Below are positions 26,556 through 55,097 of a DNA stretch of 64,000 nt, piece after piece. This DNA is from Paucidesulfovibrio longus DSM 6739 (GTDB lineage Bacteria > Desulfobacterota > Desulfovibrionia > Desulfovibrionales > Desulfovibrionaceae), in NCBI RefSeq assembly GCF_000420485.1, contig NZ_ATVA01000017.1, positions 62,001 to 126,000 on the forward strand. Reading direction: 5' to 3'. Position numbers and translations under genes: made by a program. Position 1 is the stretch's first letter. Each line of letters starts with the position of its first letter. The notes under the pieces are model-generated. The model did not search any database. It was not told the DNA's origin and saw only the letters and a list, made by a program, of their open reading frames with translations.

Positions 26556-27893
26556 ATGACGGGTAACGGTGCTCACATCGGCGTGCTGATGCCGATCTAC
26601 TTCTCCCCCGGGGAGGCCTGGTGGCGCGAAGCCGCGAACGAGGCCGTGCTCCTGGGCGAGCTGTCGCGCCTGGCCCGCATGGGCGGCACGGAGGGCACGG
26701 GCGACCTGATCGGCCTGCGCGCGCCGCTGGTCGTCACGGACGAAGCCGGGCTCGCCCGGAAGCTGCGGGAGGCGGGACTCTCCGTGCTGGACGGCCCCTC
26801 GCCCTCGCCGGAATCCCCGTCGCTGCTGCCGCTCGGCTCGCGCGCCGCGCTTCGGGAGCTGGCTCCGGACCGGGACGCGCGTCTGCTCCTGCTCGATTTC
26901 CGCCGCCTCGCCGCCGTGGCCGAAGACTGCCGCGCCGTGCTGCGCGCCGCAGGGGAGGCGGGCATGGACGCGGCCGGAGTCTGGACCACGGTGCTCCAGC
27001 CCAGGGACCACCCCTGCCAGCTCCGGCGCCACATGACGGTGCGCGAGACCGGATTTCTGCATTGCCTGGACCCCGCTCCGGAGCTCCTGCGCCGGGGCTA
27101 CCGCGCGTCCCTGCCCTACCAGGCCATGCACGGCTTCGCGCACGAGCCGGCCGGAACCTGCTTCCGGCCCGAACTGGCCCCTGCCGGAGAGCCTTTGCGC
27201 CACGGCGAGGAGGCCGACATTCTTCTGCGCAGCTCCGGCGACGGCGCGGCCCGCTGTTTGGTGAGCGAGCAGCGTCTCGCCCGCATGGCTCGGCGGCTCC
27301 GGCTGCCGTCCGAGGCCCGCATCACGGGCTTCGCCTGCGAGCCGCTGTTCCCGCGGGACGCCCTGCTCTTCGAGCGCGACGGCCAGACCTGGCTGCTTGT
27401 CGAGGCGCTGCCCGACGACGCCGAGGAAACCGGCGCGCTGGCCTCCATCCAAAACAGGGACCACTACCACGAACATGTCTGCGCCATCGGAATCCCCTGC
27501 CGCCTTCCGGTTCCGGCCGTGGGTCCGGGCATTCCGCTGTGCGTCGTCAACGAGGGCGCACAGGGCTCGGCCCCCGCGCTGAGCATTCCCTTTCAGGAAT
27601 CCCTGGGGCTCTGGAGCATGGATTCCGACGGCGAAATGCGCAATCTGACCGAGGGAACCCGCATTTCGGGACGCCAGACATTCCCCGAATGCTATCTCGT
27701 GGAGGCGGTCGCGACCCTGGGCCGCGCTGTGGATCTGGCCCGCTTCGACGCGCTGCTCGCCGAGGGCGGGGTCAGCGGCGTGCCGGTTTCCGAGGAACGC
27801 CTGATCGTCAGGAACCGCCTCGACCTGCTGCGCCACAGGGTTGCCTGCCCGGCGCGGCTCCCGGCCGAGGCCAAGGAGGCGACATGCCCGTAA
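26556..27893 (+). CDS. Unknown protein of the glycan island
   Basis: I do not recognise this 445-residue soluble protein. It has alternating alpha/beta character. Visible blocks are GVLMPIYFSPGEAWW at the front, a VVTDEAGLARKLREAGLSVLDG strand-helix, an RDHPCQLRRHM segment, RETGFLHCLDPAPELLRRGY, and late hydrophobic strands. The RDHP/CQLRR stretch vaguely recalls cytidylyltransferase-type enzymes, but this is not enough to assign. The last ten bases overlap the next start, so translation is probably coupled. It begins the 24-gene run to 55097 and follows repeat copy 2. Confidence 0.8.
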   Translation: MTGNGAHIGVLMPIYFSPGEAWWREAANEAVLLGELSRLARMGGTEGTGDLIGLRAPLVVTDEAGLARKLREAGLSVLDGPSPSPESPSLLPLGSRAALRELAPDRDARLLLLDFRRLAAVAEDCRAVLRAAGEAGMDAAGVWTTVLQPRDHPCQLRRHMTVRETGFLHCLDPAPELLRRGYRASLPYQAMHGFAHEPAGTCFRPELAPAGEPLRHGEEADILLRSSGDGAARCLVSEQRLARMARRLRLPSEARITGFACEPLFPRDALLFERDGQTWLLVEALPDDAEETGALASIQNRDHYHEHVCAIGIPCRLPVPAVGPGIPLCVVNEGAQGSAPALSIPFQESLGLWSMDSDGEMRNLTEGTRISGRQTFPECYLVEAVATLGRAVDLARFDALLAEGGVSGVPVSEERLIVRNRLDLLRHRVACPARLPAEAKEATCP

Positions 27894-28915
27894 GCGACCT
27901 GAGCGCCCTGCCCCTTGCTGCGCCCTCTCCGGCAACGGAATCCCCGGCCCCGGCTCTGCCCGGATGCGACGTCCTGGGCCTGCTCGCGGGGCCGTTCCTG
28001 ACGCATGGTTCCCCCACGGCCTGCGCCGCGCTGAGCGGGCTTTTCGGCGGACTTCAGCCCGCCGCGACCCCGGACGAAACCCTGCCGGAATTCGGCCTCG
28101 CCCCGCTGGAGCGCCGCAGGCTGGACACGAATACCGCGCTGGCCATGCGGCCCGACAGCGTCCGCAGCGAACTGCTCTTTTTCCATGACGGACGGTTCCA
28201 CCGCTACGACACCGCCGGCGGGAAGACCGTTCCGTTCGGGCCGAACATGGGCGCGTCCCAGGGCTGCTTCGGCGGGGCCGACGGCCGGGTCTGGTTCAGC
28301 CATCCCCGCAAGGCCGAGGCGCTCCGCTACGGCCCGGACGGCGAACTGGAACAACGGCTTCCCCTGCGCAACGAGCGCGGCGAGGCCATGCAGCCCTTCT
28401 GGGGGGCGTGCTGCCTGCGCGACGGCCGCGAGGAACACTACTACATCGCCAGCGCGGACCGCGAACGGCTGCTGCTGCACGTGGACCCGGAAACCGGCGA
28501 GAGCGAGACCATGCGTCCGGGACTGGTCAGCCAGCCCACCCGCATCGCCTGCGTGGGGCGGCGCATGCTCGTGCTCGACTCCCGCAACGCCCTGCTGGTG
28601 CTCGACGCGACGCGGTCCTTCCGCGAGCCGCGCGTGGAGCGCGTGATTCCGGTGCCCACGGACACGGCGCACGTCATCACCGCGCCCCACGGCATCTATC
28701 TCTGCGGGATATCCTGGATCAGCCGCATGGACGCCGACCTGCGCAGCCGCGGCAGCGTCCGGCTGGACAGCCTGCCCGGCCTGGAACGGGGGCTGCGCTG
28801 GCCGAGCATGGTCATCACCGAAAACAACGGCCCGGAGCTCTGGGTGCTGGACTGGTGCACCCGCGACCTGATCCGGCTCTCCCTCCGCCTGCCCGGCCAG
28901 TCCATTCAGGAGTAA
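27884..28915 (+). CDS. Unknown protein, probably beta-propeller-like
   Basis: The 343-residue protein has an N-terminal Pro/Ala-rich stretch (about 1-45). Repeated short beta-sheet blocks of roughly 45 residues follow, such as GGADGRVWFSHPRKAEALRY, YIASADRERLLLHVDPE and APHGIYLCGISWISRMD, suggesting a six-bladed NHL or YVTN-like propeller. No signal peptide or catalytic motif is evident. The ATG sits behind a strong AAGGAGG site inside the end of the previous gene. It could be a binding or scaffold protein for the complex encoded here. Confidence 0.78.
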   Translation: MPVSDLSALPLAAPSPATESPAPALPGCDVLGLLAGPFLTHGSPTACAALSGLFGGLQPAATPDETLPEFGLAPLERRRLDTNTALAMRPDSVRSELLFFHDGRFHRYDTAGGKTVPFGPNMGASQGCFGGADGRVWFSHPRKAEALRYGPDGELEQRLPLRNERGEAMQPFWGACCLRDGREEHYYIASADRERLLLHVDPETGESETMRPGLVSQPTRIACVGRRMLVLDSRNALLVLDATRSFREPRVERVIPVPTDTAHVITAPHGIYLCGISWISRMDADLRSRGSVRLDSLPGLERGLRWPSMVITENNGPELWVLDWCTRDLIRLSLRLPGQSIQE

Positions 28916-28919
28916 GAAC

Positions 28920-30236
28920 ATGAAGACCCTGATCTGCAAGTATCGCAACACTTCCGGCGCCCTGTACTGCCACCAGATCGTCCCCCTGCCGGACGGCGCG
29001 GTCTTTTCCAGCGAGATCATCATCGCCTACGCCTTCCTGCGCGACAACCTGCCGGGCGGCTGCGACTACCTCGAACTGGACTTTCCCATGCAGCCGGAAA
29101 CCGCCGAGGAACTGGTCCGGCGCTACGACACCATCGTCTATTTCGCGCCCTTCCCGAACTCCGAGAACCTGGACGTGCTCGCGATGCTCCCGCAAATGGC
29201 CGTGGAGCGCGGCGTGCGCACGGTCTTCGTCTGCCGCGAGTTCGGCTACACCCGCGACCTCGTGGCGCGCTATCCCCTCGGACACGCGGCCCTGGACTGC
29301 ACGGACATCGTGGCCGGGCTGGACCACCTGCTCCAGGGAGGGTTCTTCGAGGCCGCGCCCCAAGGCCCCTGCCTGCACCTGGACGACAAGGCCGTGCCAC
29401 CGGAGACGCGCCTCTACCGCGACATCTCCATTCTGGACGCGCCCGAGGTCACCAACGACCCGGCCTACAAGACCCATCCGGAAATCCGCAGCCAGCGCTG
29501 GTATCTCATCGGTTCCGGCTGCGCCCGGCACTGCTCCTTCTGCCTCTGGAACGGCTCCTGCCACCGCAACCGCGACCTGGACATCCTGGAGCGCGAGTTC
29601 GAGTGGCTGGAAGGCGGGGCCGAATACTGCCATCCGAACCTGTTCTGGAAGCGCTCCTGGAACGAGGACTACCTCAACCGCATCCGCCGCTTCCCGTCCA
29701 AAAGCTACCTCAAGGGCACGGCCCACATCGCGGACCTTTACGCCTGCCGCGACCTGCTGCCCGCATGGCGCGACGTCGGCCTGCATACGCTCAGCGTGGG
29801 CATCGAAAGCGCCCACGAGCGCGTCCTGAGCTCCATCGGCAAGACGGACAACGACATGGAAAAGCTGCGCGAGGTCAGCCGGATCCTGCGCGACCTGGAC
29901 ATGGAGCTCTACGTCAACCTGATCATCGGGCTGCCCGAGGACGGCAACGACTCCCTGAAGCAGACCTACGACCTTATGGGCGAGATGGGCTTCTACACCA
30001 GTTGCTGCTCCTTCCTGGTGCCCTATCCGGGAACCAAAGTGTACCACGAGATCCTGGACAGCGGCCTCTGCACCGCCGAAGACCTGAGCCTGGAAAGGCA
30101 CATGGACTTCTACGCCAACCGCAAGCGCACGGGCGAGCGGCCCCGCGTGCGCACCCGGCACATCGGCGAGGACGACCTCTGCCGCTGGTACGAGACCTTC
30201 CGCAGCAAGCTGCACGGCAACCCCATGGACATCTGA
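28920..30236 (+). CDS. Radical SAM protein of the B12-binding-type (BchE/P-methylase-like) group
   Basis: The 438-residue protein has an N-terminal alpha/beta region (about 1-190) where related enzymes carry cobalamin. The usual DxHxxG cobalamin loop is not seen. The radical SAM core carries C201, C205 and C208 in GSGCARHCSFC, then VGIESAHERVLSSIGK and the INLIIGLPE-type strand (YVNLIIGLPEDG). Members of this group perform methylations, cyclisations or C-C bond formation. It is the second radical SAM gene of the window and starts four bases after the previous stop. The substrate is unknown. Confidence 0.85.
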   Translation: MKTLICKYRNTSGALYCHQIVPLPDGAVFSSEIIIAYAFLRDNLPGGCDYLELDFPMQPETAEELVRRYDTIVYFAPFPNSENLDVLAMLPQMAVERGVRTVFVCREFGYTRDLVARYPLGHAALDCTDIVAGLDHLLQGGFFEAAPQGPCLHLDDKAVPPETRLYRDISILDAPEVTNDPAYKTHPEIRSQRWYLIGSGCARHCSFCLWNGSCHRNRDLDILEREFEWLEGGAEYCHPNLFWKRSWNEDYLNRIRRFPSKSYLKGTAHIADLYACRDLLPAWRDVGLHTLSVGIESAHERVLSSIGKTDNDMEKLREVSRILRDLDMELYVNLIIGLPEDGNDSLKQTYDLMGEMGFYTSCCSFLVPYPGTKVYHEILDSGLCTAEDLSLERHMDFYANRKRTGERPRVRTRHIGEDDLCRWYETFRSKLHGNPMDI

Positions 30237-30250
30237 GCAGAGGAAACGGC

Positions 30251-31354
30251 ATGACCACGACACCCGCCTGCCCCCCCTATCTCGTCACGCTGATCACCTA
30301 TGCGTGCAACTACGCCTGCCCGGGCTGCTACCACGGCCACCGGGAGGAAATGCGGCCCTATTTCGAGGCCAAGCGCAAGAACATGCGGCTCGCGGAGTTC
30401 CGGGGCATCGTGGACGAGGTCGCCCCGCACCGGATCAAGATCGGGCTGAACTCCCTGGGCGAGGTCTTCCTCAACCCCGACGTCTACGACATGATCGCCT
30501 ATGCCGTGGGGTCGGGCCTGCGCATCGAGTTCGACACCAACGGCTCCCTCCTTGAACCCGACGCCCTGGCCGAGGCCGCCCCCTCGGACGTGATCTTCTC
30601 CGTGGACGGCATGAGCCAGGAGTCGTACGCCAGCTACCGGGTCAACGGCAGGCTGGATGTGGTGCTCGGCAAGCTGGAGCGCTTCGCGCGCAACGTGGAC
30701 GCCCGGGGGACCGCGACCAACATCTACGTCAAGTTCCTGATCAACGGCCACAACGAGCACGAGGTGGACGAGGCCCGGCGTTTTGTCGAATCCCTGCCCG
30801 GCGTGCGCTTCCTGGTGGACTGCTTTTTCCCGCCGCCGCCGAGCTTCGGCTATCGGCTCGCGCATCCGGACCAGGTGCCCCTGGACATCTACGAGGACTG
30901 GCGGCCGCGCAAGCTCGCGGAATACGACCTCTTCGCCCCGCACCCGGAGCTGGGCGTGGCCCGCAGCAAGACCTGGGACCACCCCTTTGCCATGCGCTGC
31001 ACGGACATCTACAACACCCTCTACGTGGACACGGACGGCGGGGCCTATCCCTGCTGCTTCGCCAACACGCCCCGCGCCCACGACCTCACCCGCGTGCAGG
31101 ACGAGCTGCTCCTGGGCAACGTCTTCCGGGACGGCGTGCTCGGCGTCTTTCACGGCGAGCGGGCCGCCCGGCTGCGCGAAGCCTACACGCGAAAGCAGGG
31201 GCGCATCCCGGTCTGCGGCACCTGCCGAGCCAACCGCGTCAAGCGGCTGATCCAGGCCGTGGAGGGCGCGAAGTCCCATCATTTCGAAACGCTGAACGAT
31301 TTCGGCCGCAAGCCGGAGCAGGCCGGGCCGAAGCCTGCGGAGGACGCGCGATGA
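30251..31354 (+). CDS. Radical SAM/SPASM protein, paralogue A
   Basis: The 367-residue protein has the cluster C19, C23, C26 in YACNYACPGC and the FDTNGSLL and FSVDGMSQESY strands of the radical SAM barrel. A C-terminal SPASM-like region has LYVDTDGGAYPCCFAN and CGTCRANR. It closely resembles the gene at 40223, so one arose from the other by duplication. SPASM enzymes use auxiliary clusters for oxidations or epimerisations of peptides, sugars or alcohols. The stop overlaps the following ATG by four bases. Confidence 0.87.
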   Translation: MTTTPACPPYLVTLITYACNYACPGCYHGHREEMRPYFEAKRKNMRLAEFRGIVDEVAPHRIKIGLNSLGEVFLNPDVYDMIAYAVGSGLRIEFDTNGSLLEPDALAEAAPSDVIFSVDGMSQESYASYRVNGRLDVVLGKLERFARNVDARGTATNIYVKFLINGHNEHEVDEARRFVESLPGVRFLVDCFFPPPPSFGYRLAHPDQVPLDIYEDWRPRKLAEYDLFAPHPELGVARSKTWDHPFAMRCTDIYNTLYVDTDGGAYPCCFANTPRAHDLTRVQDELLLGNVFRDGVLGVFHGERAARLREAYTRKQGRIPVCGTCRANRVKRLIQAVEGAKSHHFETLNDFGRKPEQAGPKPAEDAR

Positions 31355-32415
31355 ATCCCCCGACGCACCTGTATTTCAACACCACGAACCGGTGCAACTA
31401 CCGCTGCACCTACTGCACCTTCCACTCCCCGATCTGGAAGCCGGAGCTGGGCGCTCCGGGGTTCACCCTCGGGCTGGAGGACTTCCGCCGCGAGCTGGAC
31501 CTGCTGGAAGAGGGCGCGGGCGACCACCGCTTCGAGCAGATCACCTTCACGGGCATGGGCGAGCCCATGCTCAACCCGGACATCCTCGGGCTCATCGCCC
31601 TGGTCAAGGAGCGGGGCTACACCTGCGCCCTGATCAGCAACTTCTCCCGGCTGCTCACCCCGCACATCGACGCGCTCATGGACCTGGGCCTGGACGGGCT
31701 CTACACCAACCTCGATTCCGGCGTGGCCTCCCACTATGAGGAACTGCGCCGGGGCGCGAAGTTCGAAACCACCCTGGCCAACATCCGGGCCGCGGCCCGG
31801 ACGGCGGCGCGGAAGAATCCGGGCCTGAACTTCGAGGTCCACAACCTGGTCACTCCCGAAAGCGTGGACCTGATTCCGGGCTTCATCGACACCGTGGCCG
31901 AAGCCGGGGTGAGGAAGGTCGTCATCAAGACCTTCGTGAACTTCCTGGACGTGGACGCCGGGGACCGCTTCTTCACCCACCTGGATGCGCAGCGCGACTT
32001 TTTCGCGGCCGTGGCCCGCGCCAAGGAATACGGGCGCGAACGCGGCGTGCGGGTCAACGCCCCGGCCTACGCCGAGGTGCTTTCCGGAGCGCGCGAATAC
32101 CGCGCGGACGATCCGGACCTGCGCTGCGGCATCGGCTCCGGCCTGCACCTGAACTTCGGCCCCCTGGAGCTTGGCGAGGAAGACCTGCTGGGCAACGTGC
32201 TGCACTGCTGCCCGGTGATGCGCCGGGAGGAGCACCGCAGCTACGGCAACATCCTGCGCGACCCCCTGGAGCGCATTCTCGCCCATCCGGCGCGGGTGCG
32301 GCTGCTGGAGGGGAACGCGCGCGGCGAGATCGTGCACCCGGAATGCCGGAGCTGCGAATACTGCCTGCTCGGCCTGCACGAACTCCACGCCGCGCCCCAG
32401 GAGGCCGCCTCGTGA
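31351..32415 (+). CDS. Radical SAM protein
   Basis: The 354-residue protein has the cluster C15, C19, C22 in NRCNYRCTYC, a TFTGMGEPMLNPD block and a C-terminal cysteine-rich part (VLHCCPVMRRE, then ECRSCEYC), which probably holds an auxiliary cluster. It overlaps both neighbours by four bases. The GMGEP motif is intact, so SAM binding is expected. It is not close to the paralogue pair. The reaction is unknown. Confidence 0.86.
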   Translation: MNPPTHLYFNTTNRCNYRCTYCTFHSPIWKPELGAPGFTLGLEDFRRELDLLEEGAGDHRFEQITFTGMGEPMLNPDILGLIALVKERGYTCALISNFSRLLTPHIDALMDLGLDGLYTNLDSGVASHYEELRRGAKFETTLANIRAAARTAARKNPGLNFEVHNLVTPESVDLIPGFIDTVAEAGVRKVVIKTFVNFLDVDAGDRFFTHLDAQRDFFAAVARAKEYGRERGVRVNAPAYAEVLSGAREYRADDPDLRCGIGSGLHLNFGPLELGEEDLLGNVLHCCPVMRREEHRSYGNILRDPLERILAHPARVRLLEGNARGEIVHPECRSCEYCLLGLHELHAAPQEAAS

Positions 32416-33590
32416 GCGAAACCCGCGCCTCCCGCAGAGAATACGAGGCCATCCGTGCCCGCGAGGCCGAGAACCGGGCCTATTACGACCGCGACGACGG
32501 CGTGGCCGCGCCCCCGCACACGGTCTGCCTCTCCGTGAACAACAACTGCTTCATGTCCTGCAAGATGTGCGACATCGGCACGGCCAACGCCACGCGCATG
32601 GCCCGGCTGCACGACAACCAGTTCTCGGACCGCTACGTGCAGACCCGGAACTACCGCGAGCTGCCCTTCGAGCGCATCCGCGACCTGGTGGACGAGATCG
32701 CGCCCTTCGCGCCCACGGTGAAGACGAATTTCGTGGAACCGCTGCTCTACAAGCGGCTCCGGGAGGTGGCCGAGCACGTCAAAAGCCGGGGGCTGCCCTT
32801 CTACACCATCACCAACGGCTGGATGCTGGAAAAGCACGCGCCCTGGCTGGCCGAGTGCTGCGACCTGATCCGCGTCTCCCTGGACGGCACGGCCGAGGTC
32901 CACGACGCCATCCGGGGCAAGAAGGGCAGCTGGGAGCGCACCGTGCGCGGGCTCCGGGCCTTGGTGGCGGCGCGGCGCGCACGGGGGGCCGAGCGGCCCA
33001 TCGTCGGCATCTGCTGCACCATCAGCAACCACAACTATTTCAACCTCGTGGACTTCATGGCCGCGCTGGAGCGCGAGAACCTGCTCGGCGAGCTCTACAT
33101 CAACTTCAACCACCTGCTCTTCACCACCCAGTGGGAGCTGGACGAAACCCGCGCGGCCTCGGACCTCTTCGAGGGACTCAAGCTCTGCAGCATCGACAAC
33201 ATCGTCTTCGAGGAGCTGGACACGGACGCGCTGCGCGCCCAGATCGCGACCCTGGAGGAACGCTGGCCCCAGGACGGCCACCATTATTATTTCTCGCCCT
33301 GGCTGCGCGACGAGGACATCGCCGCCTTCTACGATCCGGACTCGCGGATGTTTCCGGGCACGCCCTGCTACCTGCCCTGGTACGCGGCCCAGCTCGACAT
33401 CGAGGGCAACCTGGGCATCTACGGCCACTGCATTCTCCCGGACCTGGGCAACGCCTTCGAGGAGGGCTTTCTGGCCGCCTGGAACTCGGAGCGCGCGCGG
33501 CGGATTCGCCGGGAACTCAAGAACGCGGGCTCGTTTCCGGGCTGCAACAAGTGCATCGGCACGCTCTACCCGCTCAGGGGGCGCAGATGA
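32412..33590 (+). CDS. Radical SAM/SPASM protein
   Basis: The 392-residue protein starts at a GTG behind AGGAGG and overlaps the previous stop. An N-terminal helical segment (1-38) precedes the cluster C46, C50, C53 in NNNCFMSCKMC. The SPASM end has CYLPWYAAQLDIEGNLGIYGHC and GCNKC. The usual GGEP is replaced by NFVEPLLY, an altered SAM-binding stretch. The substrate is unknown. Confidence 0.86.
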   Translation: MSETRASRREYEAIRAREAENRAYYDRDDGVAAPPHTVCLSVNNNCFMSCKMCDIGTANATRMARLHDNQFSDRYVQTRNYRELPFERIRDLVDEIAPFAPTVKTNFVEPLLYKRLREVAEHVKSRGLPFYTITNGWMLEKHAPWLAECCDLIRVSLDGTAEVHDAIRGKKGSWERTVRGLRALVAARRARGAERPIVGICCTISNHNYFNLVDFMAALERENLLGELYINFNHLLFTTQWELDETRAASDLFEGLKLCSIDNIVFEELDTDALRAQIATLEERWPQDGHHYYFSPWLRDEDIAAFYDPDSRMFPGTPCYLPWYAAQLDIEGNLGIYGHCILPDLGNAFEEGFLAAWNSERARRIRRELKNAGSFPGCNKCIGTLYPLRGRR

Positions 33591-34300
33591 CGCCATCGGA
33601 CCGCGACCGCGCCCTGCGCGAACGCCACAACGAATTCTTCACGGGCGAGCACGCCCGGAACAACCGCGGCCGCGTGCTCACCCCCGGACAGCAGAAGCTC
33701 GTCTCCCTGCTGCGCATGGGCGCGCTGGGCGAAAACCTGCGCGAGGGGCGGGGCCGCCCGGCCCTGGACGCGGGCTGCGGCGCGGGCTTCAACACCGTGA
33801 GCCTGGGGCTGCTCGGCTGGCGGGCCCACGCCTTCGACATCACCCCGGAGCTGGCCGAAAACGCCCGCGCCAACGCGGCCGGATACGGCGTGGAGGCCGA
33901 GGTCCGCTGCGGCACGAACCAGGCCGTCCCCTTTGCCGACGCGAGCATGGACCTGCTCGTGTCCATGAACGCCGTCCACTACGTGGAGAGCGCCGGGGAG
34001 ATCGAACAGGCATTCGCGGAGTTCGCGCGGGTTCTGCGGCCGGGCGGTCGCCTCTACCTGACCACCAACCACCCGGAAAACTGGATTTTCCAGGACGGCG
34101 AGCCCGCCGGGAAGAACCTCGTGCGCGTGCGCCGGGACGGCGACTACCGCGACGGCCTGACCCTCTACCGCTTTCGGAACGAGGCCGAGCTGCGCTCCCT
34201 GGCCGAGGCCCATTTCTCGGACGTCCGCATCGGCACGGACATGCAGGAATATTTCGTGAAGACCCTGCGCAACTATGTGCTCACGGGGGTGCGCGCATGA
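33587..34300 (+). CDS. Class I SAM-dependent methyltransferase
   Basis: The 237-residue cytoplasmic enzyme has motif I ALDAGCGAGFNTV, the acidic FDITPEL, and the LVSMNAVHYVES and RVLRPGGRLYLTT motifs of Methyltransf_11. It overlaps the radical SAM gene before it and the amidohydrolase after it by four bases each. It probably methylates an intermediate of the island pathway; O- versus N-methylation cannot be told. Confidence 0.88.
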   Translation: MTPSDRDRALRERHNEFFTGEHARNNRGRVLTPGQQKLVSLLRMGALGENLREGRGRPALDAGCGAGFNTVSLGLLGWRAHAFDITPELAENARANAAGYGVEAEVRCGTNQAVPFADASMDLLVSMNAVHYVESAGEIEQAFAEFARVLRPGGRLYLTTNHPENWIFQDGEPAGKNLVRVRRDGDYRDGLTLYRFRNEAELRSLAEAHFSDVRIGTDMQEYFVKTLRNYVLTGVRA

Positions 34301-38349: not shown

Positions 38350-38352
38350 CGG

Positions 38353-39537: not shown

Positions 39538-39539
39538 GC

Positions 39540-43927: not shown

Positions 43928-43932
43928 CGCCC

Positions 43933-45117: not shown

Positions 45118-45143
45118 TCGCGGAAAGCGAGGAAGAGAACGGC

Positions 45144-47030: not shown

Positions 47031-47037
47031 GTTGAGC

Positions 47038-48960
47038 ATGTGCGGCATCGCCGGAATACTCCGCTTCGGCGGACCCACGCCCCCGGAAGGGGCCATGCGC
47101 GAGGAAATCCTGGCCATGACCGCCCGGCTGGCCCACCGAGGCCCGGACGGACGGGGCGCGTTCGCGCGCGGCGGCGTCGCCCTGGGCCACGCCCGGCTGG
47201 CCATCATCGACCTTTCCGAGAGCGGGGCGCAGCCCATGCGCACCACGGACGACCGGCTGGCCGTGACCTTCAACGGCGAAATCTACAACCACCGCGAGCT
47301 GCGCGCCGAGCTGGAAGCCGAGGGCTTCGCCTTCCGCTCCGGCTCGGACACCGAGGTCATCCTCCACGCCTGGGACCGCTGGGGCGAGGACTGCGTGGAC
47401 CACTTCCAGGGCATGTTCGCCTTCGCCCTCTGCGACTTCCGGCTGGAGCGCCTCTTTCTGGCCCGCGACCATGCCGGGATCAAGCCGCTCTTCTACCGCC
47501 GGGGGCCGGGCTTCTTCGCCTTTGCTTCCGAGCTTTCCGCCCTGCGCGCGGTGAACGCGCCGCCGCCGCGCGGCTCCCTGCAGAACGTGGACTATTTTCT
47601 GCGCTTTCAGTACGTGCCCGCGCCACGGACCATTTTTTCGGACGTGTTCCAGCTCCGGCCCGCGCACTGCCTGCGGGTGGGCCTGGACGGCCGGGAGCAG
47701 GAGCCGCGCCGCTGGTGGCGGGTGCGCTTCGCGCCGGAGCCGCCGCGCCGCGCCGCCGAGGTCCGCGAGGAGGTCCGCGCGGCCTTGACCCGCGCCGTTT
47801 CCCGCTCCCTGGTGGCGGACGTGCCCGTGGGCATCTTTCTTTCCGGCGGGCTGGATTCCAGCGTGGTGGCCATGGAAGCGGCGCGGCTGGCCGATCTCCC
47901 GCCCACGGCGTTCTCCATCGGCTTCGGCGACCGCGCGAAGGACGAGCTGCCCTGGGCCGAGCAGGCCGCCCGCACCCTGAGCCTGGAGCTGCGCAGCGAG
48001 GTCGTGGAGCACGCCTCCCTGGACATCCTCCCGGAGCTGCTCGACCATTACGGCGAGCCTTTCGGCGACGCCTCGGCCATTCCGTCCTGGTACGTGGCCC
48101 GGCTGGCCCGGCGCGAAGGCATCAAGACCGTGCTTTCCGGCGACGGCGGGGACGAGCTTTTCGGCGGGTACGAGCGCTTCCTGGCCTGGGCGCGCGGGGG
48201 CAAGTGGGCCGCTGCCCGGCGCAGCGAGCTTTGGCGCGACATCCGCTTCGGCAGGATGAAGACCCTGCGCGACTGGATCGACGGCTTCGGATTCGGCCCG
48301 GAAGCCTGGACCCGCTTCGTCTGCTTCGCGTTCTGGCCGCAGCGCGCGCGGCTCTGGCGGCCGGAGCTGCGCCACCTGGCGGACACGCCCAGCGGACCGT
48401 TCCTGCTCTCCTGGGTCCACGCGCGCAAGAGCGGCAAGGGCCGGAGCATGGCCCTGCCCCAGTCCATGGACTACGAGAACTACCTGCCCGGAGCCGTGCT
48501 GGCCAAGGTGGACCGCGCGAGCATGGCCCACGGCCTGGAGGTCCGCCCCGCCCTGCTCGACCGCGAGCTGACCGAGGCCGCGGCCCGGCTGCCGGAAATC
48601 TGCAAGCACGACCGGGGCCGCAGCGGCAAGCTCGTGCTCAAGGAAATCCTGCGCGAGCGCTTCGACAGCGCCTTTGTGGACCGGCCCAAGCAGGGATTCG
48701 GCATTCCGCGCGGCAAGTGGCTCTCGCCGGGCGCGCGCGGCTGGGAGATGCTTGGCGACCTGCTGCTCGCGGGCCGCTCCCCCCTGCACGACTGGTTCGA
48801 ACCCGGCGAAATCGAGCGGCACATCCGCATGCACGAGCGCGGCCTGGACAACTCCCAGCACACCTGGCTGCTGCTGGTCCTGGCTCTCTGGGCCGACCGC
48901 AATCCCGACATTTCCTTCACCGAAACCCCAGGCAGCCCCCCGGAAGGAGGCGGCGCATGA
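47038..48960 (+). CDS. asnB: Asparagine synthetase-type glutamine amidotransferase, copy 2
   Basis: The 640-residue protein must start at the ATG 47038 so that Cys is residue 2, as the glutaminase chemistry requires. A TTG two codons upstream is rejected. It has HRGPDGRG, FNGEIYNHREL, the PP-loop SGGLDSSV and SGDGGDELFGGYERF. It differs clearly from copy 1, so it probably has a different carboxylate substrate. It overlaps the following transferase by four bases. Confidence 0.92.
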   Translation: MCGIAGILRFGGPTPPEGAMREEILAMTARLAHRGPDGRGAFARGGVALGHARLAIIDLSESGAQPMRTTDDRLAVTFNGEIYNHRELRAELEAEGFAFRSGSDTEVILHAWDRWGEDCVDHFQGMFAFALCDFRLERLFLARDHAGIKPLFYRRGPGFFAFASELSALRAVNAPPPRGSLQNVDYFLRFQYVPAPRTIFSDVFQLRPAHCLRVGLDGREQEPRRWWRVRFAPEPPRRAAEVREEVRAALTRAVSRSLVADVPVGIFLSGGLDSSVVAMEAARLADLPPTAFSIGFGDRAKDELPWAEQAARTLSLELRSEVVEHASLDILPELLDHYGEPFGDASAIPSWYVARLARREGIKTVLSGDGGDELFGGYERFLAWARGGKWAAARRSELWRDIRFGRMKTLRDWIDGFGFGPEAWTRFVCFAFWPQRARLWRPELRHLADTPSGPFLLSWVHARKSGKGRSMALPQSMDYENYLPGAVLAKVDRASMAHGLEVRPALLDRELTEAAARLPEICKHDRGRSGKLVLKEILRERFDSAFVDRPKQGFGIPRGKWLSPGARGWEMLGDLLLAGRSPLHDWFEPGEIERHIRMHERGLDNSQHTWLLLVLALWADRNPDISFTETPGSPPEGGGA

Positions 48961-49814
48961 CCCACGCCCCCATCGCCCTGTTTTGCTACAATCGGCCCGA
49001 ACACCTCGCCCGGACCCTGGACGCCCTGGAAGCGAATCCGGAATTCGCGCGCAGCAAGGTCTACGCCTTTTGCGAAGGCCCGAAGGACGAGGCGGAACAG
49101 CCCCAGGTGGACGCGGTGCGCGCCCTGCTGCGCCGCCGCGCCGGAAAAATGGACCTGGAGCTGGTGGAGCGCGGGGAAAACCTCGGCCTGCGCGCCAGCA
49201 TCGTGGACGGCGTGACCCGCGTCTGTCGGGAGCATGGCCGGGCCATCGTGGTGGAGGACGACATCGTGGCCAGCCCGGTCTTCCTGAACTCCATGAACGC
49301 GGCCCTGAACCGCTACGAAGACACGCCGGAGGTCATGCACGTTTCCGGCTATTTCCTGCCCGTGGACCCGGCCGGACTGCCCGAAAGCTTTTTTTACCGC
49401 CCGACGAGCTGCTGGGGCTGGGCCACCTGGCGCGAGAGCTGGCAGCACCTTGACCTGGACGCCGCAGGATTGCTCGCCCGGCTGCAAGGCGAGGCCGGAG
49501 AACGCTTCGATCTGGACGGAGCCTACGACTTCCGCGCGCATCTGCGCCTGAACCTCGAAGGCCGCATGTTCACCTGGGCCATCTTCTGGTACGCTTCGGT
49601 CTTTCTGCGCGGAGGCTTCTGCCTGCATCCCCGGATTTCCCTGACGCGCAACATCGGCCATGACGGCGGGGGCAGCAACTGCCGCCCGACCACGAGCTTT
49701 CTCGGCGAGATGGGCGGCGCTCCCGTAAGCGCCTTCCCGGACGTCCTGCAAGAGGAGCCGCTCGCACTGGCGCGGGCGCGGGAATTCTACCTCAACAACA
49801 AGGGCCGCGTATGA
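48957..49814 (+). CDS. GT-A glycosyltransferase, GNT-I-like
   Basis: The 285-residue protein opens IALFCYNRPEHLARTLDALE and carries VVEDDIV, an EDD-type metal motif as in GNT-I-like transferases. SCWGWATWRESW is typical of this bacterial group. It is soluble. It overlaps AsnB copy 2 and the next methyltransferase by four bases each. Sugar and acceptor are unknown. Confidence 0.88.
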   Translation: MTHAPIALFCYNRPEHLARTLDALEANPEFARSKVYAFCEGPKDEAEQPQVDAVRALLRRRAGKMDLELVERGENLGLRASIVDGVTRVCREHGRAIVVEDDIVASPVFLNSMNAALNRYEDTPEVMHVSGYFLPVDPAGLPESFFYRPTSCWGWATWRESWQHLDLDAAGLLARLQGEAGERFDLDGAYDFRAHLRLNLEGRMFTWAIFWYASVFLRGGFCLHPRISLTRNIGHDGGGSNCRPTTSFLGEMGGAPVSAFPDVLQEEPLALARAREFYLNNKGRV

Positions 49815-50803
49815 CCGCCTGTCCGCTGTGCAGCGCTCCGGGGGCGGCCCCGCTCGAACACGTCCGATCCGAAGACATCGCCGCGCTCTACGAGCGCTTT
49901 TTCCGCATGGACGCGGCCCGGCTGCTGCCCGCCCAAGGCCTGGACTACCGCGAGTGCCCGACCTGCGGCCTGGGCTGGTTCTCCCCGGCCGCGCCCGGCG
50001 ACGGCGACTTCTACGCGGACCTGCAACGCTTCGACTGGTACTACGACCCGCAGCGGCCCGATTTCGACGCGGGCGCGGCCTATGTCCGCCCCGGCGACCG
50101 CGTGCTCGACGCGGGCTGCGGCCGGGGAGCCTTTGCATCCCGCCTGGAAGAACAGATGGCCGCCCGCATGGTGGAAAGGCACGGCGCCCAGAGCGCTGCC
50201 GTGGCCTACGAGGGACTGGAAACCAGCGAAAACGCGGTCTGCATGGCCTGCGCGTCCGGGCTGAACGTGCACTGCGCCGACATCGCGGAATTCGCGGAGC
50301 AGCGCGCCGGGGAATACGACGCGGTCTGCGTTTTCCAGGCTCTGGAGCATGTTCCCGCGCCCGGAGCGTTTCTGGACGCGGCGCGGCAACTGCTCGCTCC
50401 CGGAGGCAGGCTGATCGTGTCCGTTCCCTCCCAGAGCGCGTTCGTGGGCCGGTCCTGCAACGCGGTGCTGAACCTGCCGCCGCACCACCTGAGCCGCTGG
50501 CCCGACCGGACCCTGAAATATCTCGCGCAGCGGCTCGGATTGAACCTGCTGCGCCTCGAGCACCTGCCCCTGGAGCCGGTGCACCATGAATGGTACGCCA
50601 TGACGCGCATTCTCGAAAAGCTGCGCAGCAGCGGCGCGCCGAGGCTGGTGGACGGCTCCCTGGCGTTCTGGCGGCGCTATCGGCTGGCGCGCTTCCTGGC
50701 CCGGCGCGGCGCGGCCGCACCCGACCCGCACCATCCGCCGGACGGCCACACCGTGCTCGTGGTCCTGGAAAACGACAACACCGCAGCCAGGGAGGAACAA
50801 TGA
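49811..50803 (+). CDS. SAM-dependent methyltransferase with N-terminal zinc motif
   Basis: The 330-residue protein has a zinc-ribbon-like start with C4, C7, C49 and C52. The methyltransferase domain follows: VLDAGCGRGAFA for SAM, then YDAVCVFQALEHV and LLAPGGRLIVSVPS. The architecture resembles sugar C-methyltransferases that carry an N-terminal zinc domain, though their usual C-terminal domain is missing. The last 30 residues are Pro/His-rich. It overlaps both neighbours by four bases. Confidence 0.88.
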   Translation: MTACPLCSAPGAAPLEHVRSEDIAALYERFFRMDAARLLPAQGLDYRECPTCGLGWFSPAAPGDGDFYADLQRFDWYYDPQRPDFDAGAAYVRPGDRVLDAGCGRGAFASRLEEQMAARMVERHGAQSAAVAYEGLETSENAVCMACASGLNVHCADIAEFAEQRAGEYDAVCVFQALEHVPAPGAFLDAARQLLAPGGRLIVSVPSQSAFVGRSCNAVLNLPPHHLSRWPDRTLKYLAQRLGLNLLRLEHLPLEPVHHEWYAMTRILEKLRSSGAPRLVDGSLAFWRRYRLARFLARRGAAAPDPHHPPDGHTVLVVLENDNTAAREEQ

Positions 50804-51981
50804 CCGCCGCTGTTTCGGAAAACATGCTCCCCAGCCTGAACCTGGACTACGACCTCTGCCTCCAGCGCCTGCGCAGCAAGCGGGAATGGCTGCGCTCCCC
50901 GGAAGCGCAGGCCGCGTTTGCCGGGCTTGCCGAACGCCTGAAGGAGTTCGGCCAAAGGCCGCGCATCGCCCTCTACGGCTCCTCCTGGTCCGGATACATG
51001 GCCGCAAACCTGCTGGAGCAGGCAAACGCGGGCGCCGTGGAACTCGTGTTCGAGTCCAGCGACCCCCTGCCCGAACTGGCCCACCTGCCGCACCGGAACC
51101 TGCTGCATGGGGATGCACGCGACTCGGCGGACTGCGTCCTGCTGGCCACGGCTCCGCGCCACTACCCCTTCATCGAACCCCTGGTCCGGGCCAAGGTGGA
51201 CGCGCCCCTGGTGGTGGGCATGTACGCGCCGCAGAAGCCGGAAATCCCCCTGCCCGAACCCGACTCCTCCCTGGGCGTCCGCACCCGGGTGGGCACGGCC
51301 GGAGTGGAAGCGCGCCTGCCCCTGCACCGCTCGAACCTGGCCCTGGTGCTCATCGACCTCTGGGATCTGGGCAGGCCCTCGTCCCCGTACGACGACTGCA
51401 TCCCGGAACTGCTCGCCCTGGCCCGACGACACGACCTGACCGTGATCCATGCGCCGAGCTACAAGCTCAAGCCGGGAGGCGGGTTCGTGACCAAGTCCCT
51501 GGAAACGCCCGTTGCCGCGTCCCAAGAGTGGCCCCCCCTGGAATTCCGCAACCGCCAGGGCCGATTCGGACACTGCGACCACACGGCCCGGAGACTCAAG
51601 GCCGGCGACCCCCGGCCCCTGGGTCTGCTCGACTGCGCCATGCCCGTGGACCGGCCCAACGAATACGTGGAGTCCTCCTTGGAAGGCGTGCTCGAAATCC
51701 TCGAACGCCGGCGGATCCTCTATCCGCTCTACGCCGGGGGCGGCACGCTGCAATGCCTGGTGTTCAAGCCCGCAGGCTATTTGAACCTCGCGCGGCACGG
51801 CTACCAGCCCATCCTGGTGCGCGACGCCACTGCCGACAACCTCCAGGAAGTGGACGGCGCGCTCGTGGACATGCAGGCCGCCGGAGTGGCCTGTTTCGAA
51901 AATCTCTGCGGCCTCTCCACGACCATCACCGACCTGCGCGACGCCCTGGACGCTCCGAGCGCGGGCAGGGAGCGGAGCTAG
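50800..51981 (+). CDS. Rossmann-like domain fused to an isochorismatase-family hydrolase domain
   Basis: The 393-residue protein has two parts. Residues about 10-170 carry RIALYGSSWSGYMAANLLE, a nucleotide-binding-like loop. Residues about 180-385 are isochorismatase-like: LALVLIDLWD gives the catalytic Asp, TVIHAPSYKLKPGG the region near the catalytic Lys, and GGGTLQCLVF the nucleophile Cys at the family position before ILVRDATAD. Such hydrolases cleave amides or ethers. In this operon it could trim an amide made by a neighbouring AsnB. The start follows GGAGG. Confidence 0.78.
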   Translation: MTAAVSENMLPSLNLDYDLCLQRLRSKREWLRSPEAQAAFAGLAERLKEFGQRPRIALYGSSWSGYMAANLLEQANAGAVELVFESSDPLPELAHLPHRNLLHGDARDSADCVLLATAPRHYPFIEPLVRAKVDAPLVVGMYAPQKPEIPLPEPDSSLGVRTRVGTAGVEARLPLHRSNLALVLIDLWDLGRPSSPYDDCIPELLALARRHDLTVIHAPSYKLKPGGGFVTKSLETPVAASQEWPPLEFRNRQGRFGHCDHTARRLKAGDPRPLGLLDCAMPVDRPNEYVESSLEGVLEILERRRILYPLYAGGGTLQCLVFKPAGYLNLARHGYQPILVRDATADNLQEVDGALVDMQAAGVACFENLCGLSTTITDLRDALDAPSAGRERS

Positions 51982-51984
51982 GCC

Positions 51985-53853
51985 ATGTGCGGCATCTTCG
52001 GCGTTGTGGGACGGCTCGACGCGGACACGGCCGGGCGCTGCCTGGACCGCCTCGCGCATCGCGGCCCGGACGGCCGGGGCCTGGAAATCCTCGACGGCTG
52101 CGTGCTCGGCCATCGCCGCCTCGCCATCCTGGACGCCTCCGAGGCCGGAAAGCAGCCCATGACCTCGGCCTGCGGGCGCTGGACCCTGAGCTTCAACGGC
52201 GAAATCTACAATTTTCTCGAACTGCGCGCGGACCTGGAAGCGCGGGGCCGGACCTTTCATTCCGGCAGCGACACCGAGGTGCTTCTGGAAGCGCTGGTCC
52301 TCTGGGGACCGGACTGCCTTTCGCGCTGCAACGGCATGTGGGCGCTGGCCCTCTGGGACAGGCGCGAACATAGGCTGCTGCTGGCGCGCGACCGTTTCGG
52401 CAAGAAGCCGCTCTTCTGGGCCGAGACGCGCCACGGCCTGGCCTTTGCCTCGGAAATGAAGGCGCTCTTCCCCCTGCTGGACAGGCTGGAGGCGAATCCG
52501 GAGCTGGCCGGGTCGAGCCGCCGGATCATGAGCTACGAGGGCACGCCGGACTGCCTCGTGCGCGGGATCAACCGCTTTCCGGCCGGGCACCTAGCCTGGA
52601 CGCGCGGCGAGGCCCCCCGGCCCGTGCGCTGGTGGAACACCCTGGACCACCTGGAAACCCCGCCCGCCCGCTTCGAGGAGCAGGCGGAACGTTTCCGCGA
52701 ACTGTTCCTGGACGCCTGCCGCCTGCGCCTGCGCAGCGACGTGCCCCTGGGCACCTCCCTTTCCGGCGGGCTGGACTCCGGAGCCGTTGTCTGCGCCCTG
52801 GCCCACCTGGAACGGCAGGGCGGCCGCGCCCCGCGCCAGGGCCGCGACTGGCGCAACGCCTTTTGCGCGGCGTTTCCGGGCACGCCCCTGGACGAGTCCG
52901 CCCCGGCCACGCTCGCGGCGCGCCACGCCGGGCTGGACGCGCATCTGGTGGAAACCGACCCGGCCTCGGTTCCGGACACGCTCTACCGCGACCTCTGGCT
53001 GCTGGAAGAGCAGCACCTGACCCTGCCCTCGCCGTTCATGCGCGTCTACGCGGCGCAGCGGCGCAGCGGCGTGCGCGTGAGCCTGGACGGGCACGGCGCG
53101 GACGAGATGTTCGCGGGCTACGGCTTTGATTACCTGCACGCCATGCACGACGCCCCGCCCTGGCGCTGGCCGGACGTGGCCGCCGCCTACCGGGCCGGAC
53201 TGCCGCGCGGACCGCAATTTCCCCGGCCCTCGACCCTGCGGCTCGTGCGCGACCACCTGAAAAACCGGCTGCGCCGCGAGCCAGCGCCCATGTTCGGCGG
53301 ACCGGACGCGGACCACCCGGCCTGGCAGGGCATGGGCCGCCTGAACCGGCTGCTCCACCACGGCTTCCACCGCACCATCCTGCCCACGCTGCTGCGCAAC
53401 TACGACCGCTATTCCATGGCCTGCGGCGTGGAGGTGCGCATGCCCTTCATGGACCACCGCATCGTGACCTTCGCCTTTTCCCTGCCCTGGACCTCCAAGC
53501 TGCGCGGCGGGTTCAGCAAGGCCGTTGTCCGCGCGGGCATGGCCCCGCTCATGCCACGCGAAATCGCCTGGGCCAGGACCAAGATCGGGTTCAACGCCCC
53601 GGCCCTGGAATGGATGCGCGGGCCGCTGCGCCCGTTCTTCGAGGACGCCCTGCATTCGCGGGCCTTCCGCGAGTCCGGACTGGCGGACCAGCCCCTGGCG
53701 GCCGGGCGCTTTCAGGCCCTGGTCGATGCCGAGCGGCCCACCTTCGACCAGGCCCAGGCCTGCTGGACCGCATTTTTGCCATTTTTCTGGGAGGAGGCCG
53801 TGCTGCGCGGCAAGGGCGAGCCCAAGGGGGGAACGTGCGCGTCGTCCTGCTGA
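51985..53853 (+). CDS. asnB: Asparagine synthetase-type glutamine amidotransferase, copy 3
   Basis: The 622-residue protein has C2, HRGPDGRG, FNGEIYNFLEL, RFGKKPLFW, the PP-loop SGGLDSGA and SLDGHGADEMFAGYG. All glutaminase and ATP-pyrophosphatase residues are kept. The glutaminase-synthetase junction is longer than in copies 1 and 2. The last 18 bases overlap the next gene. Like its relatives here, it is more likely a glycan amidase-type enzyme than a supplier of asparagine. Confidence 0.92.
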   Translation: MCGIFGVVGRLDADTAGRCLDRLAHRGPDGRGLEILDGCVLGHRRLAILDASEAGKQPMTSACGRWTLSFNGEIYNFLELRADLEARGRTFHSGSDTEVLLEALVLWGPDCLSRCNGMWALALWDRREHRLLLARDRFGKKPLFWAETRHGLAFASEMKALFPLLDRLEANPELAGSSRRIMSYEGTPDCLVRGINRFPAGHLAWTRGEAPRPVRWWNTLDHLETPPARFEEQAERFRELFLDACRLRLRSDVPLGTSLSGGLDSGAVVCALAHLERQGGRAPRQGRDWRNAFCAAFPGTPLDESAPATLAARHAGLDAHLVETDPASVPDTLYRDLWLLEEQHLTLPSPFMRVYAAQRRSGVRVSLDGHGADEMFAGYGFDYLHAMHDAPPWRWPDVAAAYRAGLPRGPQFPRPSTLRLVRDHLKNRLRREPAPMFGGPDADHPAWQGMGRLNRLLHHGFHRTILPTLLRNYDRYSMACGVEVRMPFMDHRIVTFAFSLPWTSKLRGGFSKAVVRAGMAPLMPREIAWARTKIGFNAPALEWMRGPLRPFFEDALHSRAFRESGLADQPLAAGRFQALVDAERPTFDQAQACWTAFLPFFWEEAVLRGKGEPKGGTCASSC

Positions 53854-55097
53854 ACACCTTTGAGGACAAGGGCGGCGCTGCGCGGGCCGCTGTGCGCCTC
53901 TTCGAGGGGCTGCGGGGGCTGCCGGAGCTGGACGCGCGCATGCTCGTGCGCGAGGCCGGAGCGGGCAGGCCGGGCGTTCGCGTGCTGCCGGGGCTGCCGA
54001 CGGCCTGGACCGCGCGCCTGGACCAGCGCGCGCTCAAGGCGGCCCACCCCCGGCGCGAGCGCATCCCCTTTTCCGTGAACCGCGTGCCCGGCCTCGCGGC
54101 CGCCGCCCTGCGCGGCCTGCGGCCCGACGTGGCCCACCTGCACTGGCTCCACTGCGGCCTCACCCGCATCGAGAGCCTGGCCCGGCTGGAGGTTCCCGTG
54201 GTCTGGACCATCCACGACATGTGGGCCTTTACCGGAGTCTGCCACTACGCGGGCGGCTGCGAGCGCTACCTGCACGGCTGCGGCTCCTGCCCGGCCCTGC
54301 GCAGCGAAAATCCCGGCGACGTGTCCGCGCGGACCTTCGCCCGCAAGGCCGCCGCCTGGCCGCGCATGAACCTGACCGTGGTTTCGCCGAGCCGCTGGCT
54401 CGCCCGGCTGGCGCGCAAAAGCCCGCTTCTCGGCGGGAAGAGGGTGGAGGTCATTCCCAACGGCCTGGACACCGAGACGTTCGCGCCCCTTTCCGCCGCC
54501 GGGCGCGTTCTGGCCAGGCAGCGGCTCGGACTGCCCGCCGACGCCGAGCGGCCCTTGCTCCTCTTCGGCGCGGACTTCGCCCTGCGGGACGCGCGCAAGG
54601 GCGGAGGCGACCTGCTCGCGGCCCTGGCCCGGAGCGGGCTGCAAGCGGACCTGGCCATTTTCGGGCACGACGGCCCGGCTCCGCAGGTCGAAGGATGCAG
54701 GGTCCACGGCCTCGGATACCTGCGCGACGACGCGCACCTCGCCGAGGTCTACGCCGCCTGCGATCTCTACGTCCTGCCCACGCTCCAGGACAATCTGCCC
54801 AACACCGTGCTGGAATCCCTGGCCTGCGGAACGCCCGTGCTGAGCTACGACGTGGGCGGGGTGCCCGAAATGATCGAGGACGGGAAAAACGGATTTCTCG
54901 TGGCCGGCGCGGCCGAAATGCGCGGGGAGGAACGCGCCGAAGCCTTGGCCCGGACCCTGCGAGCGGCCCTGACGACCCTGGGCGCGCCGGAACGCGCCGC
55001 GCAGCTGCGGGCCGGGGCGAGGGAAAAGGCGCTCGGGGAATATTCGCTGGAAAGGACGGCGCGGCGCTACGCCGCGCTCTACGCGGAGCTGCACTGA
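53835..55097 (+). CDS. Glycosyltransferase, GT4 family
   Basis: The 420-residue GT-B protein starts at a GTG behind GGGGGG. It has VRVVLLNTFEDKGGAARAAVRL, the WTIHDMWAFTGVCHY loop, VIPNGLDTETFAPL, and the C-terminal donor motif VLPTLQDNLPNTVLESLACGTPVL with the EMIEDGKNGFLV glutamate. This resembles transferases that add a sugar during colanic-acid-like synthesis (WcaC type). It is the last gene of the island and runs into a convergent histidine kinase without an obvious terminator. Confidence 0.9.
   Translation: MRVVLLNTFEDKGGAARAAVRLFEGLRGLPELDARMLVREAGAGRPGVRVLPGLPTAWTARLDQRALKAAHPRRERIPFSVNRVPGLAAAALRGLRPDVAHLHWLHCGLTRIESLARLEVPVVWTIHDMWAFTGVCHYAGGCERYLHGCGSCPALRSENPGDVSARTFARKAAAWPRMNLTVVSPSRWLARLARKSPLLGGKRVEVIPNGLDTETFAPLSAAGRVLARQRLGLPADAERPLLLFGADFALRDARKGGGDLLAALARSGLQADLAIFGHDGPAPQVEGCRVHGLGYLRDDAHLAEVYAACDLYVLPTLQDNLPNTVLESLACGTPVLSYDVGGVPEMIEDGKNGFLVAGAAEMRGEERAEALARTLRAALTTLGAPERAAQLRAGAREKALGEYSLERTARRYAALYAELH

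Follow-up and report, generated by a model that had tools for sequence, protein, structure and literature searches.

Many unusual acyl groups decorate the surface sugars of bacteria and archaea, and the origin of these groups is often unclear. Among described systems, the loci for pseudaminic and legionaminic acid are some of the closest to the one reported here, a glycan island in Paucidesulfovibrio longus DSM 6739. The island lies in a stretch of 64,000 nucleotides (nt), referred to as the window, which corresponds to positions 62001-126000 of contig C17 (NZ_ATVA01000017.1) in a genome of 3.70 Mb. Like the pseudaminic and legionaminic acid loci, it contains PseC-like and PseF-like genes (u7 and u8 respectively), and its gene pair encoding an aldolase fusion (g09) and an ATP-grasp ligase (g10) is one that occurs together with NeuB in other organisms. 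Unlike them, it lacks NeuB, and has seven radical S-adenosylmethionine (SAM) genes in an operon and three AsnB-type amidotransferase genes. The cytidine monophosphate (CMP)-transferase that characterizes a nonulosonic acid locus is present (u8, PF02348 above cut-off), scoring 137.5 bits against the PseF equivalog (under the cut-off of 205.7), while u7 scores 277 bits against the PseC model, also under its cut-off.

We favor the explanation, to which the sequence comparisons below lend about an even chance, that this glycan island is horizontally variable and would make an amino sugar with a purpose-built N-acyl group, the latter supplied by the aldolase-dehydrogenase fusion and the ATP-grasp ligase. 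The amino sugar is probably CMP-activated and similar to pseudaminic or legionaminic acid. The initial annotation had described an operon of 24 genes centered on radical SAM enzymes, and had proposed a sugar built by radical chemistry. The sugar remains plausible in view of the nucleotide-sugar-type enzymes, the glycosyltransferases, and the relatives of BtrN, BlsE, and AprD4 described below, but that account missed both the island and the acyl module; going by gene conservation, the center of the conserved cassette is the fusion together with the ATP-grasp ligase, and not the radical enzymes. No pathway with this combination of genes was known to the initial annotation either, and in the literature searched (titles and opening lines of abstracts, from sources outside most subscription journals) we found no account of such a locus or its product. 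We take it to be an undescribed, elaborate form of sugar-modification locus that is built around a recurrent acyl module.

The 24 plus-strand genes at 26556-55097 (g01-g24, Table 1) contain no internal stops when their open frames are translated. Junction measurements bear out the earlier claim of same-strand genes with gaps of at most 26 nt (spacing of -19 to +26 nt, and 4-nt overlaps at 10 of the 23 junctions), and this spacing suggests that the genes are co-transcribed. The claim that the unit starts at 26556 did not hold: the CMP-transferase gene is found 108 nt upstream of that position, and the unit is extended further by an empty site in another genome of the same genus (G054). In G054, the amidase and histidine kinase genes that flank the island adjoin each other (L109, 4611-6308 and 6697-8646 respectively); similarity to the window stops at 15487 on the left and restarts at 55162 on the right, and about 39.7 kb of the window (15488-55145) is missing. 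Because the amidase and kinase genes are adjacent in G054, we read this segment as an island, and by this comparison the real unit is the ~39.7-kb island, which is larger than the 24-gene block. The empty site, together with the relatives of u1 and u2 that stand beside the cassette in G409 (see below), rules out 26556 as a functional boundary.

In the other genome of the genus that was searched (G013), no match to the aldolase was found, and the neighborhood of the kinase gene differs. The G+C content is 0.691 in the island, and 0.663 and 0.657 in its flanks. No long direct repeat was found at the island ends, the longest shared word being 9 nt. In addition to the 24-gene block, the island contains two epimerase-like genes, one radical SAM gene, three glycosyltransferase genes, the PseC-like and PseF-like genes, and a minus-strand methyltransferase gene, and it is adjoined by chemotaxis genes (Pfam). 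Genes in the window were called with a model trained on genes chosen from Pfam results. Pfam agrees with the families initially listed for the 24 genes (aldolase fusion, ATP-grasp, amidohydrolase, DUF1847, deacetylase, three methyltransferases, three amidotransferases, and glycosyltransferases), and gives no family for g01, g02, and g20 even at an E value of 10.

A full-length match to the aldolase fusion was found in only three of 119 family genomes, namely P. longus itself (G000), Fundidesulfovibrio agrisoli SG106 (G009, from record L059), and G050, and six more gave matches to all or part of the aldolase half. A profile of the C-terminal domain (C-domain) matched five of 348 class genomes, adding G409 (taken to be the same genome as L026) and a stand-alone C-domain in G007. 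The latter is a frame of 393 amino acids, and the 30-kb stretch around it contains no match to the aldolase. Both G009 and G050 have clear relatives of 10 of the 24 genes (39-59% identity) in one run, ordered g18, g06, g08, g09, g10, g11, g07, g14, g17, and g19, with relatives of u7 and u3 between the last two. G409 likewise has relatives of 10 of the 24 (g05-g12, g17, and g19); here the blocks g06-g07-g08 and g09-g10-g11 are intact but swapped, and are followed by g12, and relatives of u1 (75%) and u2 (77%) are found next to the cassette, on the opposite strand. Eight genes (g06-g11, g17, and g19) are common to G009/G050 and G409, and 12 are found in at least one of them. The search of related genomes for conserved gene order, recommended at the outset, has returned an eight-gene cassette, with its blocks in order, which by homology is kept in two other genera. 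G000, G009, and G050 each contain a single match to the amidohydrolase g08, namely the cassette's own copy.

The aldolase half of g09 resembles the solved 4-hydroxy-2-oxovalerate aldolase 4lrs (Z 37.3, 266 aligned residues, 1.8 Å, 32% identity). Across 23 aligned fusions, His197 and His199 do not vary and the conservation of Asp18 is at least 90%; we take these three residues to be metal ligands, and both the fold and these positions fit the HMGL-like metal-dependent pyruvate aldolases. Compared with DmpG-type aldolases, g09 passes the NF006049 subfamily cut-off (249.2 vs. 229 bits) but falls below that of the TIGR03217 equivalog (216.5 vs. 286 bits), has TLRDGSY at the position of the DmpG motif, and is fused to a dehydrogenase-like domain, the DmpG communication domain being matched below threshold only. 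The C-terminal half (about 340 residues), which has no Pfam family, was profiled from the 23 fusions and matched dipicolinate synthase A (2e-8), then adenosylhomocysteinases and formate dehydrogenases. Foldseek with the whole model listed mainly the aldolase half, and the C-terminal half was folded alone; its model (predicted local distance difference test score of 90) had FolD and dipicolinate synthase A as best matches. We read this domain as NAD(P)-dehydrogenase-like, which is predicted rather than proven. The neighboring g10 has L-amino acid ligases and BacD as its nearest relatives (PDB 3vot, 3e-16; PF18603), with which it shares its domain architecture (LAL_C2), but it stands in a glycan locus.

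In the proposed pathway, the u3 epimerase and u7 aminotransferase would make the amino sugar, and the g14 deacetylase would free its amine. The aldolase half of g09 would condense pyruvate with an aldehyde to a 4-hydroxy-2-oxo acid, which the dehydrogenase half may reduce to a 2-hydroxy acid. The amidohydrolase g08, whose family PF04909 we take to include sugar lactonases, might open a lactone or trim an intermediate, the g07 methyltransferase would cap a hydroxyl, and g10 would join the hydroxy acid to the sugar amine as an N-acyl group. The cassette's radical step, on the sugar or on the chain, is tentatively assigned to g06 and g11, and extra tailoring to g03, g04, g05, g13, and g16; the AsnB-type enzymes may form amides, and the glycosyltransferases would assemble the glycan. 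Every reaction and substrate in this pathway, and the order of its steps, is what we infer from the observed gene content, cassette, aldolase/ATP-grasp pairing, folds and families, and island bounds. A chemical analogy may be found in the flagellin glycan of Treponema denticola, reportedly a sugar of the pseudaminic type that carries a 2-methoxy-4,5,6-trihydroxyhexanoyl group, an acyl group whose shape is just what the pathway would give.

The pairing of g09 and g10 was then followed beyond the class by using the aldolase alignment to scan 84,980 species, each represented by one genome. The best 80 of at least 561 relatives were compared; these loci were ranked by likeness to g09, are non-independent samples, and were scored by differing methods, with locus profiles partly trained on G009, G050, G025, and G115 (those for amidohydrolase and deacetylase came from G025 and G115 proteins chosen by eye, later supported by Pfam). 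The aldolase occurs with the C-domain in 24 of the 80 loci, fused in 22 and as adjoining frames in two (L086, 9905-12067, and L100, 5302-7391). Hosts of these C-domain aldolases include Acidobacteria, Hydrogenedentota, Chlorobium, Woesearchaeota, and Hadesarchaea, among others. Full flanks (9 kb or more on each side) were available for 43 of the 80 loci, 13 with the C-domain and 30 without. Within 10 kb, a g10-type ATP-grasp gene was found in all 13 of the former and seven of the latter (Fisher p = 2e-6; 5e-6 on leaving out L059, the record of the training genome G009), an amidohydrolase gene in 6/13 and 1/30, and an aminotransferase gene in 10/13 and 14/30. As background, six whole genomes gave ten ATP-grasp matches in total, and three of the six had one amidohydrolase match each. 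By these gene neighborhoods, the aldolase-dehydrogenase/ATP-grasp pairing recurs across bacterial and archaeal phyla.

Two groups of loci illustrate the company that the pair keeps. In Chlorobium ferrooxidans (L092), a single run encodes a PseB-like Polysacc_synt_2 protein, an aminotransferase, a CMP-transferase, NeuB, an ATP-grasp ligase, a methyltransferase, and the fusion, together with a protein just below the Glyco_tran_28_C cut-off that is possibly PseG-like. In G025, G115, and a Clostridia locus (L052), the aldolase is accompanied by an ATP-grasp ligase, a radical SAM protein, NeuB, a PF04909 amidohydrolase, a methyltransferase, and a PIG-L deacetylase, the last in place of the WbmS-like deacetylase of the island; the Pfam support for PF04909 strengthens the comparison with these three.

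The same survey bears on the role of the aldolase relative to NeuB. It might stand in for NeuB and build the sugar itself: condensation of pyruvate with the aldehyde of a modified amino sugar would yield a new 2-keto acid sugar, which the PseF-like enzyme would activate with CMP. The island does contain the CMP-transferase and not NeuB, and pyruvate-type chemistry is expected of the aldolase by its family. However, NeuB lies within 10 kb of the aldolase in 32 of the 80 loci, and near it in G025, G115, and G029 as well, which indicates that in many cases the aldolase comes in addition to NeuB, and replacement would leave the tight link to the ATP-grasp ligase unaccounted for. We consider this replacement quite unlikely.

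Several observations weigh against the N-acyl explanation that we favor. NeuB is absent from the island, the genome's three copies being on contigs C15 (two) and C19, and it is no commoner beside C-domain aldolases than beside the others (6/13 vs. 15/30 of the loci with full flanks); it is thus the ATP-grasp ligase that tracks the C-domain, while NeuB does not. Unfused aldolase loci with full flanks are mostly without an ATP-grasp gene (23/30). For the C-domain of g09, the VIA rows reached Z 13 (dipicolinate synthase) over 126-138 of the 340 residues, with transcarbamoylases nearly tied, and no clear GxGxxG was seen by eye. The amidohydrolase g08 lacks, by eye, the usual HxH, and no solved relative of it was found; used as a single query, it matched nothing in G025 or G115, where the link is through Pfam. 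The aldolase was found in only one of 80 genomes from the Spirochaete family of G119 (the source of L079), and the T. denticola precedent is a chemical analogy only, without support in the Spirochaete family searched.

All seven radical SAM proteins initially recognized by their visible clusters (g03, g04, g05, g06, g11, g13, and g16) were confirmed, each having one CX3CX2C motif and a Pfam Radical_SAM match over cut-off (barely so in g03, 30.7 vs. 29.5); SPASM is present in the six others but not in g03. Of the 40 Radical_SAM matches in the whole genome, eight fall in the window (these seven and u4 at 18956-20695). In a comparison of six of the seven (all except g04) with solved structures, the top-ranked matches were AprD4 for g03 (8e-7), BlsE for g05 (5e-10), g06, and g13, and BtrN for g11 (9e-10) and g16 (2e-6, with DesII lower at 0.0015); lower-ranked matches included PqqE and MoaA for g05 and PqqE for g11. 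These nearest solved relatives are sugar or aminocyclitol enzymes, AprD4, BlsE, and BtrN presumably acting on an aminoglycoside, a nucleoside uronic acid, and an aminocyclitol respectively, but the island proteins match them partially, often over the SPASM or core region only. Among the rows listed, none of the seven reached an NCBIfam cut-off.

These radical proteins invite a different explanation, in which the locus makes a secreted small molecule or modified peptide, with SPASM enzymes tailoring a ribosomal peptide and AsnB-type enzymes closing amides. Six SPASM proteins are indeed present, and the AsnB-type proteins score on lasso cyclase models, though below cut-off. The initial annotation had found no precursor peptide; this stands within the 24-gene block, whose gaps of at most 26 nt cannot fit a stand-alone precursor, but the gaps upstream of the block do hold open reading frames of 20-54 codons. 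Pfam found no exporter, and sugar or cyclitol enzymes are nearest for six of the six radical SAM proteins compared, PqqE and MoaA coming next for some. A peptide product appears very unlikely.

In a phylogenetic tree of the radical SAM proteins (two L059 rows having been removed as duplicates of G009), g06, g11, and g05 group with counterparts in other genera (support of 100/99, 100/100, and 99/97 respectively), g04 and g13 are mutual nearest relatives, and g16 has no counterpart. No orthologues of g03, g04, g13, and g16 were matched in the cassette-bearing relatives G009, G050, and G409, and the tree does not settle whether the radical SAM proteins of G025, G115, and L052 are orthologous to g11. 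Radical SAM/SPASM genes of the island kind occur in only three of the 80 aldolase loci (L026, L052, and L059), so the radical part is seen as a local addition. Elsewhere in the genome, two further radical SAM genes are found no more than 6 kb from a NeuB gene (contig C15, 289106-295597), possibly a second locus of the radical-plus-nonulosonate kind.

A further explanation, an ordinary O-antigen or capsule locus in which radical enzymes deoxygenate, oxidize, or epimerize sugars and the aldolase makes a branch, would be consistent with the five Pfam glycosyltransferases (u1, u5, u6, g17, and g24), the AsnB-type amidotransferases, and the WbmS-like deacetylase, and also with the absence of the island from both same-genus genomes searched, as is seen for variable surface loci. 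Against this, Pfam shows no flippase, polymerase, or ABC exporter among the island genes, and we regard such a locus as unlikely. The nearest Maf-type gene (PF01973) is about 12.5 kb beyond the window, and the flagellin genes of P. longus are on other contigs; in G009 and G050, a flagellin gene shares a contig with the aldolase gene, at a distance of about 35 kb. Given the lack of flippase, polymerase, and exporter, the chemotaxis neighbors, and the flagellin genes in G009 and G050, flagellin is a reasonable but unproven target for the N-acylated sugar.

Some features of the island's ends and intergenic regions were also recorded. A 22-nt element, ATCATTYACYTTNNGAATRAAC, occurs in two copies, upstream of u8 and of the 24-gene block; a pattern one base longer, built from both sites, found no further copies in the genome at up to two mismatches. 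A sigma-54-like site, TGGCACGGAACTTGAT, at 15590-15605 upstream of the island's first gene is not above chance (2.6 expected per window with one mismatch). Upstream of the amidase gene, a 36-bp stretch (15452-15487) is 92% conserved with G054 (L109, 6511-6546), and a terminator-like hairpin was called there on the minus strand; between 15258 and this stretch no similarity to G054 was found. A single CMP-transferase gene of 757 amino acids at 24174-26447 was ruled out, as the minus-strand methyltransferase gene (24222-25400, PF13578) lies within it and the transferase is 25686-26447; the 757-aa frame served as the u8 query in some comparisons, and its C-terminal part in others. By eye, g22 has an N-terminal Rossmann-like part.

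Table 1. Features of the glycan island of P. longus DSM 6739, with positions in the window; identities refer to relatives in the genomes named.
Feature	Position	Strand	Remarks
Whole island, ~39.7 kb	15488..55145	.	between amidase (13526-15298) and histidine kinase (55146-57110) genes
u1, GT2 glycosyltransferase	15666..16472	+	PF00535; start uncertain, scanned frame from 15480
u2, NAD-dependent epimerase/dehydratase	16475..17539	+	Pfam
u3, NAD-dependent epimerase-like	17885..18898	+	SSSASVYG / YxxxK by eye; 72% identity in G009/G050
u4, radical SAM, island's eighth	18956..20695	+	Pfam; CX3CX2C
u5, GT4 glycosyltransferase	20705..21607	+	Pfam
u6, GT4 glycosyltransferase	21604..22926	+	Pfam
u7, DegT aminotransferase, PseC-like	22974..24107	+	Pfam, 340.8 bits; 55% identity in G009/G050
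Methyltransferase	24222..25400	-	PF13578, 2e-13
22-nt element, copy 1	25653..25674	+	upstream of u8
u8, CMP-sugar cytidylyltransferase, PseF-like	25686..26447	+	PF02348 over cut-off, in longer frame
22-nt element, copy 2	26497..26518	+	upstream of g01
g01, no Pfam family	26556..27893	+	weak 28% match in G050
g02, no Pfam family	27884..28915	+	judged beta-propeller-like by eye; inside biosynthetic block
g03, radical SAM, HpnJ/BchE/AprD4-like	28920..30236	+	Pfam; CX3CX2C
g04, radical SAM/SPASM	30251..31354	+	paralogue of g13 (41%)
g05, radical SAM/SPASM	31351..32415	+	counterpart in G409/L026
g06, radical SAM/SPASM, cassette member	32412..33590	+	55-57% identity in G009, G050, G409
g07, SAM methyltransferase, conserved	33587..34300	+	Pfam; G009/G050/G409
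g08, amidohydrolase, conserved	34297..35082	+	PF04909; 59% identity in G009/G050, 45% in G409
g09, aldolase and predicted NAD(P)-dehydrogenase-like fusion	35079..37154	+	residues 1-340; ~352-691
g10, ATP-grasp ligase, L-amino acid ligase type	37144..38349	+	PF18603
g11, radical SAM/SPASM, cassette member	38353..39537	+	Pfam; G009/G050/G409; tree
g12, DUF1847 protein	39540..40226	+	Pfam; 57% identity in G409
g13, radical SAM/SPASM	40223..41365	+	Pfam; CX3CX2C
g14, WbmS-like polysaccharide deacetylase	41350..42018	+	PF22537; 39% identity in G009/G050
g15, SAM methyltransferase	42015..42827	+	Pfam
g16, radical SAM/SPASM	42827..43927	+	Pfam; CX3CX2C
g17, GT4 glycosyltransferase	43933..45117	+	Pfam; G009/G050/G409
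g18, AsnB-type amidotransferase	45144..47030	+	Pfam; 59% identity in G009/G050
g19, AsnB-type amidotransferase	47038..48960	+	Pfam; G009/G050/G409
g20, no Pfam family	48957..49814	+	judged GT-A glycosyltransferase-like by eye
g21, SAM methyltransferase	49811..50803	+	Pfam
g22, possible isochorismatase-type hydrolase	50800..51981	+	sub-threshold PF00857, E 0.19
g23, AsnB-type amidotransferase	51985..53853	+	Pfam
g24, GT4 glycosyltransferase	53835..55097	+	Pfam

Beyond P. longus, a more tentative reading, possible but somewhat doubtful, is that an undescribed sugar decoration, widespread in bacteria and archaea, consists of a polyhydroxy acid made by the aldolase-dehydrogenase from an aldehyde and pyruvate and attached to an amino sugar by the ATP-grasp ligase, with conserved radical SAM enzymes acting on the sugar or the chain in this lineage; the island would then be the most elaborate form of the set among the loci compared. 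If this is true, the module of aldolase-dehydrogenase and ATP-grasp ligase, often accompanied by an amidohydrolase and a methyltransferase and sometimes by a radical SAM enzyme, would predict such acyl groups from genomes across many phyla, and g06 and g11 would gain a pathway in which to seek their substrate. As Fundidesulfovibrio agrisoli SG106 carries the cassette, this reading is open to test in a named strain.

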